16,310 nucleotides of DNA, from NCBI GenBank assembly GCA_016215705.1, contig JACRIR010000062.1, positions 1-16,310 of the forward strand, read 5' to 3'. Made by a program: the position numbers and the translations under genes. The notes under the pieces are model-generated. The model saw only the letters and a list, made by a program, of their open reading frames with translations. It was not told where the DNA came from and searched no databases. The DNA comes from Candidatus Poribacteria bacterium. Lineage in GTDB: Bacteria > Abyssobacteria > SURF-5. Below are positions 4,432 to 14,340 of the stretch, in pieces; position 1 is the first letter of the stretch; each line of letters starts with the position of its first letter.

Positions 4432-4476
4432 CGCTTATTCGGGGACACCATGCCGCATGGTGTCCCCGAATAAGCG
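4432..4476. repeat. Perfect 21-bp palindrome with 3-nt loop
   Basis: Arm CGCTTATTCGGGGACACCATG, cut at 4452, pairs without mismatch with 4456-4476 across a CCG loop. It lies in the 5' leader of the activator mRNA, 38 nt before the ATG. Its core ATTCGGGGACACCAT resembles the ATTCCGGGGACATAAT at 15345, so it may be a mobile REP-like hairpin. There is no U-run, so a plain terminator is unlikely. Confidence 0.85.
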
Positions 4477-4514: not shown

Positions 4515-6260
4515 ATGAACGATCCGCAACACGTTTACGACACACCCAACCCGAGGGGCCACTACCGAGCCCTTCTCGACTCTCTCAACATCGGGTACAC
4601 ACTGCAGGATATGGACGAGAATATTCTCGACGTGAATGAGACACTTATCAAGATGGTCGGCGCGCGGCGCGACCAGCTCGTGGGTCACAATAACCGCGAA
4701 TTCTACAGCGCCACTGAGTTTGCGCGACTGCGCGAGATCGCGCTGCCGCTCCAGGAACAAGGGGCGTACCAGTTCGAGTTCATCTTGCCGACTGCCACCG
4801 GCGAGCGAATCCCCGTACTGTACAACTCGTTCATCAACCGCGACAGCGAAGGCCACCCCGAAACGATCAACGTGATGATCACGGACATCCGCGAGCAGAA
4901 AAGAATACAGGCGGACCTCGAGTCGGCTAACCGCGCGCTGTCCGAAAGTCGTGAAACCCTCGAAAGGGAAAAGCGAAAGCTGGAGGCGATCCTATTCGGC
5001 ATTGGCGATTGCGTGACCATCTTCGACCTCGACGGAAAACTGCTGCTCAGCAATCCACGCGGGATGCAGACCCGAGGCGCGGGAGCAAAACCGCTATTGC
5101 CGCTGAAATCGGGCAGCCAGAAGGAGCTTACTCTGTCGACAGCGGGCGGCGACGTGCGCAGGTTCCTCGGCGTACTCGAGGCGATCCGCGACGACGAGGG
5201 GACTCCGTTCGCGTTCGTCGAGATTCTCAAGGACATCACCGACCAGGTGCGCCTTGGCGAGCGCGAGCAGGAACTTGTGAGGATGCGGCGCGAGATACGA
5301 CGCGGAGTCCTCAAGGCGGAGATGGTCGGCGTGAGCACTGTCATGGAAAAAGTTTTCGACTTGATCTTGCGGTGCGCGGAGGTGGATTCGACCATCCTGA
5401 TCCTCGGAGAAACCGGAGTCGGCAAAGAACTGGCCGCGCGCGCGATTCACTCGCAGAGTGGTCGCAAGGCGAAACCGTTTGTGGCCGTCAACTGCGGCGC
5501 GCTTCCCGAGGCGCTCCTCGAGTCGGAACTCTTCGGGCACGTGAAGGGCGCGTTCACGGGCGCAATATCGGAACATGCGGGCCTGTTCCGCGAAGCGCAA
5601 GGCGGCACGCTGTTTCTGGATGAAGTGGGCGACCTCACCGGCCCGCTGCAAGTGAAACTCTTGCGCGCGCTTCAGGAGAGAGAGATTCGTCCCGTCGGAG
5701 GCGACCGCTCACACGCCGTCGACGTGCGAGTGGTGGCCGCCACCAACAAGGACTTGAAAGAACTGGTCGACCAAAGCCGGTTCCGGCACGATCTGTACTA
5801 TCGTATTGCCGTGATCCCTCTCGTTATTCCCCCGTTGCGCGAACGACCCGAGGACATTCTCCCGCTGGTCGAGCATTTCCTGCGAAAACACGGCAAGAAG
5901 AGTAAGCGGTCATCCGCGAGTCTGCTTGCCGGACTTGACCACAACGCTCAACAGGCGCTCCTCGAATACTCATGGCCCGGCAATATCCGCGAGCTCGAAA
6001 ACGCAATCGAACATGCCCTTGCCATGGCGCGCGGCCCGCTGATCACGCCCGACGATTTGCCTGTCCATGTTCTCACGGGCGGGAAGAGGAGGGACGAAAA
6101 ACCACAGGCGACGCTTTCGGCTAGGTCGTTCGAGGCCGAAAGACAGGTCATAACTGACACTCTCCGCCGACACAACGGAAACCGCACTCTTGCCGCGCGG
6201 GACCTCGGCGTCTCCCGCACCACACTCTGGCGGAAGATCACAATGTATCATCTTCTCTGA
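4515..6260 (+). CDS. Sigma-54-dependent transcriptional activator (PAS-PAS-AAA+-Fis HTH)
   Basis: A 581-residue cytoplasmic enhancer-binding protein. A PAS domain (about 15-128) is joined by a coiled coil (about 127-160) to a second, shorter PAS-like domain (about 157-247). Next come a linker coil and a complete sigma-54-interaction AAA+ domain (about 270-500): Walker A GETGVGKE at 298-305, GAFTGA at 345-350, Walker B LFLDE at 366-370, the arginine-finger segment FRHDLYYR at 423-430 and [10 protein letters not shown] at 487-496. A Fis-type helix-turn-helix (about 556-576) ends the protein. There is no receiver domain, so the signal is probably a small molecule or redox state sensed by the PAS domains rather than phosphorylation. 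AGGA sits 9 bases before the ATG. It is divergent from a cluster with a sigma-54 promoter and most likely controls it. Confidence 0.96.
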
Positions 6261-6299
6261 AAAAGGCGAAAGGGAAAAAAGAAAGAAGAAAAAAAGTCA

Positions 6300-6454
6300 T
6301 TAAACCGCAAAGACGCAAAAAGCGCAAAGAAAAAGAGTCGAAAGGGTCGAGACGAAAGACGAAAGGCAGCATCAAAGGCGTCATTCTGAGCGAAGCGAAG
6401 AATCTCGTTGGAAGAGAAACCTTGTCTTTGCGAGCTTTGCGCCTTTGCGGTTTA
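6300..6454. repeat. Dispersed palindromic repeat, copy 3, with a second repeat unit inside
   Basis: Arms TAAACCGCAAAGACGCAAAA... (6300-6332) and ...TTTGCGCCTTTGCGGTTTA (6425-6454). Between them, at 6380-6407, is TCATTCTGAGCGAAGCGAAG followed by AATCTCG, a separate short unit that I recall as common between genes in many bacteria. It lies between the activator stop and the ferredoxin start. Confidence 0.85.
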
Positions 6455-6502
6455 TCCTCTTCTTCTCAATCCAAAATAACAACAAAAGGGAGGTGTTCAT
6501 TA

Positions 6503-13271: not shown

Positions 13272-13304
13272 GGTTGCGTACTCTTAATCCACCCTGCGTA
13301 TGGG

Positions 13305-13321
13305 TCCCGCCGAAAGCGGGA
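13305..13321. repeat. Short hairpin TCCCGC-CGAAA-GCGGGA
   Basis: A perfect 6-bp GC-rich stem in the gap between the thioredoxin-like gene and the hypothetical gene. It resembles the hairpins at 1645-1724. The gap 13272-13483 holds nothing else recognisable. Confidence 0.5.
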
Positions 13322-13483
13322 AAACCCCCTCCAAGTGCGCATCATGAATCCGCGAATCTATTCAAGGGACGCAGTCAAATGGCTGCGCCCCTCCATTCTC
13401 GTAGCTTGCCGTTCCACCCAGTCTTATATCACGAGCGAGCCACGTCTGTCAAACATCTTTGCCCTTCGCTTTTAGCCTCCCTA

Positions 13484-14083
13484 TCATCCCGGTATCTCAC
13501 CATAAGGCGTAGACTTCTTCGCCCAGAGGTTGTCCGGATATTTCTTCTTCAATTCGAGATGCGTCTCTTTGAGTTTCTTCGGGTCGCGGCTGCTCTTATA
13601 GCCGGCGACACCCAGATAGAAGAGCGCCTGCGGCGCCGCATCGGTGTTCGGATTCTTATCGGCTATCTCGCGCAACTGCTCAATCGCCGCTCTGAAATCC
13701 CCTTTGTCCAGCTTCTCCATCGCGCGAAGCAATGCAAGCTCAGCGACGAGTTCCTCCGGAGGCATGTAGCCAACCATATGATGACGCGGATTGCCCTCGG
13801 GATCGAGGATTACAAAGGTAGGAGTCCACCGGACATGGTATTTCTTCATCATATCCGTGGGTTTGGCGAAGTTGCATTGCGATTTCAAGGCGACAAAGTT
13901 CTCGGAAAGCATCTTCTGAACGCCTTCGTTTGGATACGTGACCGCATCCATCTTCTTGCAACCGATTCAGCCGTCCACCCAGAAGTCCAGGAAGACACGC
14001 TTGTTCTCTTTCTTCGCTTGCTGAAGCGCTTTGTCATAATCGTTCAGCCAATTGATCTCAGTCATGGTTTTCGTCTCGGCCAT
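13484..14083 (-). CDS. Thioredoxin-fold/TPR selenoprotein, UGA-encoded Sec39 in a UxxC motif
   Basis: Read through one in-frame TGA (13969-13967), this gives 199 residues. The N-terminal domain (about 10-115) is a thioredoxin fold: RVFLDFWVDG, then Sec39-I-G-C42, then KKMDAVTYPN, with the cis-proline segment WTPTFVILD (P88). The C-terminal part (about 118-185) has TPR-like helices (LDKGDFRAAIEQLREIADK). In relatives the UGA position is the first, nucleophilic Cys of CxxC, so Sec fits chemically. An 8-bp hairpin starts 17 nt after the UGA (see the SECIS entry). The ATG at 14083 has AGGAGG six bases upstream and a promoter at 14132-14160, so the upstream 38 codons are expressed sequence, not chance. 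No signal peptide is seen, so it is a likely cytoplasmic thiol/selenol oxidoreductase. The natural stop is TGA-TAG. A Cys-to-stop mutation or read error remains the alternative; starting at M45 would lose the active site. Confidence 0.82.
13931..13950 (-). promoter_or_regulatory. Candidate bacterial SECIS hairpin
   Basis: On the minus strand UGGAUGCG-GUCA-CGUAUCCA forms an 8-bp stem (one G-U pair) with a 4-nt loop that begins with G. The loop starts at nucleotide 25 after the UGA. Loop size, a G at the first loop position and the UGA-to-loop distance all fit the known loose pattern of bacterial SECIS elements. It lies within the coding frame, as bacterial SECIS do. Confidence 0.65.
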
Positions 14084-14131
14084 AATCATCCTCCTCTCAG
14101 CCCGAACCGAACAGCTTGAGAATTCGGAATA

Positions 14132-14160
14132 ACTCTAACACCGTTTCTCCACACTGTAAA
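14132..14160 (-). promoter_or_regulatory. Sigma-70-type promoter of the thioredoxin-like gene
   Basis: Minus strand: -35 TTTACA (14160-14155), 17-bp spacer, -10 TAGAGT (14137-14132). The start would be near 14125, about 42 nt before the ATG at 14083. This supports the upstream start and hence read-through of the UGA. Confidence 0.5.
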
Positions 14161-14214
14161 GCCCGTCGCACGAATACAGGCGAAAGACGAAAGGGTAAGC
14201 CCAAAAGACCAATC

Positions 14215-14340
14215 AAACCGCAAAGACGCAAAGTGCGCAAAGGAGCAGAGGAAAGAAAGATTCCTTTCGTGAAATTCGTACAATTTGCGACATCCGTGAT
14301 CAAGAGTTCTGCTTTGCGCCCTTCGCGTCTTTGCGGTTTA
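14215..14340. repeat. Dispersed palindromic repeat, copy 4
   Basis: Arms AAACCGCAAAGACGCAAAGT... (14215-14242) and ...CCCTTCGCGTCTTTGCGGTT (about 14311-14340) flank about 68 bp. It lies between the divergent thioredoxin-like and PilZ-like genes. The remainder of the 14084-14602 gap holds the two promoters listed separately. Confidence 0.85.

Follow-up and report, generated by a model that had tools for sequence, protein, structure and literature searches.

The locus analysed here raises the question of whether an in-frame TGA, found where a thioredoxin-like protein should have its first redox cysteine, is read as selenocysteine (Sec). The gene lies in a stretch of 16,310 nucleotides from a Candidatus Poribacteria bacterium (the window), and a first-pass annotation had called it a probable selenoprotein. 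That overall claim is supported by the present analysis and passed every refutation test that was run. We estimate a probability of about 0.95 that Sec is inserted into a UxxC thioredoxin-fold protein. The Sec codon, the Sec machinery, the SECIS element and the fold were each established by computation.

The reading frame and its in-frame TGA

Translation of the minus strand from 14083 to 13484 with TGA as Sec gave MAETKTMTEINWLNDYDKALQQAKKENKRVFLDFWVDG-U39-IGCKKMDAVTYP..., with IGC42-KKMDAVTYP following U39 and one internal TGA. This agrees with the first-pass annotation, which had described a well-placed ATG preceded by AGGAGG and a frame running to 13484 with a single TGA at codon 39; everything that it had claimed about the sequence holds. 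As for its proposed promoter, a sigma-70-like site is present upstream of the start, though a consensus match of this sort carries little weight. The features of the gene are as follows.

13484..14083 (-): selenoprotein CDS, 199 residues, Sec at codon 39 (translation with TGA as U; homologs collinear over the full length)
13484-13486 (-): terminal stop TGA of the selenoprotein CDS, with TAG coming next
13967..13969 (-): in-frame TGA, codon 39, read as Sec, at the nucleophile position of UxxC (TGA in the 80 best homologs; Cys in L025 and 14 Geobacteraceae orthologs)
13958..13960 (-): resolving Cys42 of U-I-G-C (invariant in 50 aligned homologs)
14090..14095 (-): Shine-Dalgarno AGGAGG, 6 nt before the ATG (sequence)
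14132..14160 (-): possible sigma-70 promoter, TTTACA-17-TAGAGT (consensus match only, 9/12; low weight)

Under table 11 without recoding, the callable ORF has 155 aa and starts at M45, past the Sec codon. As had been predicted, ordinary gene calling thus deletes the active site. NCBIfam is also without a model for the family: none scored above its cut-off for the window protein, and the best E-values across 50 members were no better. An antisense open frame of 281 codons (13274-14119, plus strand) spans the whole selenoprotein gene; it is mechanical and without support.

Conservation of the TGA codon

Among 145 sampled genomes, full-length relatives were found with TGA (L024, L026 and L027) and with TGC (L025). 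The L024 ortholog comes from a genome of the same family as the host (G001), is 57% identical and has TGA at the same codon. It is flanked by the same two genes as in the window (encoding an HD domain and a tRNA-editing domain), and its genome also carries selA and selC. The host phylum is sparsely sampled, with 3 genomes in the comparison set; in the third of these (G002), selA and selC are present and an ortholog of the selenoprotein was not found. In the genome with the Cys form L025, neither a selA match nor a tRNA-Sec above the cut-off was found.

We then scanned 84,980 species genomes with an alignment and patterns that start after the Sec codon, so that this codon could not steer the search. 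The scan returned 161 relatives, of which the best 80 were retained. TGA was present at codon 39 in 80/80 of these best relatives, which is far beyond chance. They belong to Desulfobacterota and related groups, Nitrospirota, Planctomycetota (Brocadia, Jettenia) and one acidobacterial MAG, and Syntrophus/Syntrophaceae and Geobacteraceae loci occur among the homologs. A codon-blind pattern search of 395 genomes belonging to the same phylum as a Geobacteraceae locus yielded 45 sites, spread over 43 genomes, and all 30 readable loci (30/30) had TGA at the Sec position. Viral contigs, scanned twice with the family, contained no relatives.

Codon 39 of the homologs was solely TGA or Cys, in line with the earlier placement of U exactly at the first Cys of CxxC. 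The reading frame downstream of the TGA was conserved over its full length in 50 aligned homologs. The homologs are collinear and the sequence is conserved on both sides. The gene therefore has the pattern of a bacterial selenoprotein, with TGA in frame at a position where homologs have Cys or Sec, and with both flanks conserved. Another genome (L047; G011:C77, 1501-1803 and downstream) encodes a distinct thioredoxin-like protein that also has TGA in frame (DFWRPGUKWCARMEESTY) but whose C-terminal tail is longer; it is probably another UxxC selenoprotein.

The selenocysteine machinery

The host genome is a draft of 5.47 Mb in 270 contigs, 92% complete. The four genes that the first-pass annotation had proposed to look for are all present in this one genome. 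Profile search detected selA (580 bits against a cut-off of 268) and selB (371 bits), which share a contig. The tRNA-Sec (selC) scored 68 bits and was reported by ARAGORN as tRNA-SeC with anticodon TCA, and selD scored 391 bits. The host selD (L018, contig C134) has an in-frame TGA at the known Sec site SGGUACK (GUxxK) and is a second, independent selenoprotein gene. Among ten tested genomes with a TGA ortholog, nine had a tRNA-Sec above the cut-off (9/10). A tRNA-Sec above the cut-off was not found in G149, nor a selA match in G199, both of which have a TGA ortholog; we put these missing matches down to incomplete assemblies, as an assumption.

A bacterial SECIS hairpin downstream of the TGA

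The published bSECIS model has a loop of 3-9 nt, a stem of 4-16 bp, an MFE <= -7.5 kcal/mol, a G within the first two loop positions and a distance of 16-37 nt from the UGA (PMC13188914). The hairpin TGGATGCG-GTCA-CGTATCCA lies within these constraints: its 8-bp stem begins 16 nt past the TGA, the GUCA loop has G first, the distance from UGA to loop is 24 nt, and the folding energy is -12.0 kcal/mol. Shuffling gave z-scores of -2.2 to -4.1, varying with the stretch taken. No family was found in an Rfam gathering search of the window.

13931..13950 (-): bacterial SECIS stem-loop (fold, codon lock, covariation, loss in Cys orthologs)
13943-13940 (-): SECIS tip pair closing GU (covariation)

Homologous hairpins were compared in gap-free windows positioned by the TGA, numbered with TGA at 0-2, the stem at 20-25 with 32-37, and the tip as N26-G27-U28-N29. 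The stem was intact in 114 distinct Sec sequences. Codons with a pairing third base were nearly fixed compared with the codons used for the same amino acid elsewhere in the same genes: GAT in 83/83 (58% elsewhere), TAT in 81/82 (60%), ACG in 68/68 (24%) and TCG in 15/15 (9%). Fisher p values for this codon lock ranged from 1e-14 to 1e-38 and are indicative, the related sequences not being independent. Pair 22:35 shifts from A-U to G-C via G-U intermediates, at the cost of exchanging Asp for Gly in the protein.

The tip pair 26:29 was complementary in 114/114 distinct Sec sequences, as A-U, G-U, G-C, C-G or U-A, whereas neighbouring Ala/Thr-Val codons in long ORFs at these loci are complementary in only 39%. 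Mutual information across the region peaked at the tip pair in the first 84 sequences (0/20,000 shuffles were as good), among which G27 was invariant and U28 was U in 82/84. The hairpin with a G-first loop that had been noted earlier is thus present, but its 8-bp form is not that of the family: the family tip pair is formed by tip positions 1 and 4 around GU rather than enclosing a 4-nt GUCA loop, and the eighth base pair closing GUCA can form in only 42/114 sequences. In crystal structures of SelB with SECIS, SelB reportedly reads the closing pair around G-U. The published loop model has a closing pair too, but with one more nucleotide inside (PMC13188914). The family as a whole offers extensive covariation data on the features of the hairpin tip that SelB requires.

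Exchange of Sec and Cys in Geobacteraceae

Of 40 matches in the Geobacteraceae set, which come from 39 genomes, 20 have TGA and 20 do not. Thirty orthologs were read, comprising 16 with TGA and 14 with TGC or TGT. The stem was kept in all Sec forms and lost in the Cys forms, in which MDAVTYP is mostly replaced by MEEVTFA or MEAVTFA. Since the hairpin is lost together with drift of this motif, the motif of the Sec forms is largely an RNA by-product, the fixed MDAVTYP having been held by the SECIS RNA rather than by the protein. Since selA was present in 20/20 genomes without the stop, it is the gene that changed and not the pathway. Sec/Cys switching in Geobacteraceae is a clean natural experiment, in which an RNA element dictates protein sequence.

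Alternative readings of the TGA

Mutation of TGC or TGT to a stop, or a sequencing or assembly error, would leave the protein dead or misread, and a single TGA in a 270-contig draft is compatible with either. However, the TGA is common to more than 110 orthologs in independent assemblies, which in effect supplies the resequencing that the first-pass annotation had named as a possible refutation. With the downstream frame conserved over its full length and the hairpin codons locked, we consider a pseudogene or error extremely improbable, and this explanation was rejected as refuted by the orthologs with TGA. The in-frame read-through seen in both the selenoprotein gene and selD could also arise if UGA were generally recoded to Trp or Gly, or read by a suppressor tRNA. 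TGA terminates 10/12 plausible neighbouring genes in the window, and therefore there is no general recoding; the first-pass annotation was right that UGA is a normal stop in the other genes. The complete Sec pathway is present, the alternative residue in homologs is Cys and not Trp or Gly, and the SECIS is retained only with TGA. The chance of such recoding is negligible, and it was rejected on the basis of the window stops, the Cys alternatives and the homolog TGA.

A further reading treats UGA39 mainly as a selenium-dependent stop, with the full redox protein made when selenium is available and only the M45 fragment made without it. An in-frame ATG (M45) does lie just past the TGA with its 155-aa ORF intact, and, to our knowledge, decoding and termination at UGA compete in all selenoproteins. 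Against this, M45 lies inside the SECIS-constrained motif, a clear Shine-Dalgarno sequence was not found before it, and in the Cys orthologs the switch has no replacement, making a main role as a stop quite improbable. Insertion of Sec at UGA39 is the reading followed below.

Domains and fold

13721..14059 (-): thioredoxin-fold domain, DsbD-gamma-like, residues about 9-121 (Pfam Thioredoxin_2 E 3.4e-18; AF2 model; VIA-align)
13496..13756 (-): C-terminal TPR-like helical domain, residues about 110-196 (model helices; TPR_16 E 3e-06, below the Pfam cut-off; profile matches)

The protein belongs to Pfam Thioredoxin_2 (PF13098), which it matches at 66.3 bits against a gathering score of 27, and the Thioredoxin_7 and DsbH-type domains also match. 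In the AlphaFold2 model (pLDDT 96.8, pTM 0.90), a helical tail comes after the thioredoxin fold, and U39 and C42 sit at helix H40-49, after strand E29-35. Its top fold match was the DsbD C-terminal domain (VIA-align Z 15.3, rmsd 2.1, 109 residues, 28% identity); the Foldseek and VIA-align alignments fall mostly within residues 7-124, which leaves the fold comparison with little to say on the TPR-like tail. W86-T87-P88, within the WTPT loop (residues 86-89), is invariant in the aligned homologs. With U/CxxC at the start of a helix and a cis-Pro loop recognised by sequence rather than by geometry, the protein is a thioredoxin-fold UxxC oxidoreductase.

TPR_16 scored 28 bits where 32.7 are required, so that the tail is without a Pfam TPR match above threshold. 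The C-terminal helical pairs are TPR-like in the AlphaFold2 model and the family profile matches the TPR chains of CpoB, YbgF and BamD, suggesting that 'TPR-like' is a safer term for the tail than TPR.

Proposed mechanism and function

In the most probable scheme, SelB bound to Sec-tRNA(Sec) recognises the hairpin just 3' of UGA39 so that Sec is inserted and translation proceeds past the UGA. The product has its U-I-G-C active site in a thioredoxin domain resembling DsbD-gamma, to which a short TPR-like tail is attached. It would act as a thiol/selenol redox protein and is probably cytoplasmic, a signal peptide or transmembrane stretch not being evident from the sequence. A disulfide or oxidised thiol is the expected target of the Sec39 selenolate, and Cys42 would resolve the mixed selenenyl-sulfide to give an intramolecular selenenylsulfide. 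A flavin reductase similar to thioredoxin reductase would then reduce this bond again, and the TPR tail probably holds a client protein. The inferred parts of this scheme are which way the electrons flow, the partner, the client and the location in the cytoplasm.

Gene context is a weak hint for function. A thioredoxin-reductase-like flavoprotein with CVDC adjoins the gene in 7 of about 80 loci and lies 54-111 nt downstream on the same strand in 5 of those 7, weakly suggesting that a flavoprotein of this kind is the electron donor. The flavoprotein neighbour was not found in the window, and among the gene neighbours at the roughly 80 loci none was conserved beyond 11.

We lean towards a role as a disulfide reductase. 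Sec at the nucleophile position of a thioredoxin fold can also reduce peroxides, and the protein could accordingly be a peroxide-reducing, peroxidase-like enzyme instead. This is rather unlikely, since the UxxC motif has a resolving Cys and the closest fold is that of DsbD-gamma/thioredoxin, not peroxiredoxin.

Relation to known proteins

Geobacter metallireducens, G. uraniireducens and Syntrophus aciditrophicus have a UxxC 'thiol:disulfide interchange protein' listed among their selenoproteins (PMC1794560), and reviews place this selenoprotein under PF13098 (PMC13188914, PMC9312934; example WP_011366075.1). PF13098, UxxC and the Geobacteraceae and Syntrophus lineages are common to that family and the present one, whereas the window gene is in a different phylum. 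Because lineages, domain and motif agree, the two are likely to be the same family. The window gene is a real selenoprotein gene of an already known kind, for which the SECIS sequence evidence is unusually complete. A text search of the two reviews found no mention of a TPR tail for the 'thiol:disulfide interchange protein', and a further text search found no paper on a bacterial protein of this sort that combines selenocysteine and SECIS with TPR. It is doubtful, however, that the widespread selenoproteins with a thioredoxin domain and TPR-like tail are distinct from the reviewed 'thiol:disulfide interchange protein' and undescribed as a family, with a SECIS subclass defined by a two-nucleotide GU tip, a covarying closing pair and a two-nucleotide 3' bulge fixing MDAVTYP.

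The DsbD gamma domain has the closest fold, and the CxxC of DsbD aligns with U39xxC42. In contrast to DsbD, the window protein is without the transmembrane beta domain, has Sec for the first Cys and carries a TPR-like tail instead. It lacks the full alpha, beta and gamma architecture, scoring 61 bits against an NCBIfam cut-off of 330 through the gamma part only. The NCBIfam Trx-type selenoproteins share the thioredoxin fold and match the window protein partially (TsoB, 56 bits against a cut-off of 805; Trx7/PDZ, 30/300; VPGUxxT type 1, 28/350; VPGUxxT type 2, 23/275), but differ from it in architecture and motif. YbbN (CnoX) of E. coli, found among the Foldseek matches (3qou, 3qdn), likewise has a thioredoxin domain followed by TPR-like repeats. 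Its full-length rmsd exceeds 10 Angstrom, its helical part is much longer and it is without Sec, so that it offers only an idea of how the protein might work.

Other features of the window

Four intergenic inverted-repeat elements of about 120-180 nt (104-222, 2720-2855, 6288-6467 and 14203-14340) have arms like TTCACCGCAAAGGCGCAAAGAGCGC. The copies are similar to one another and look like a dispersed palindromic repeat of the REP or MITE type. A perfect 22-bp inverted repeat with a 1-nt spacer (CGCTTATTCGGGGACACCATGC; 4432-4476) lies just upstream of a sigma-54 type regulator gene (4515-6260).
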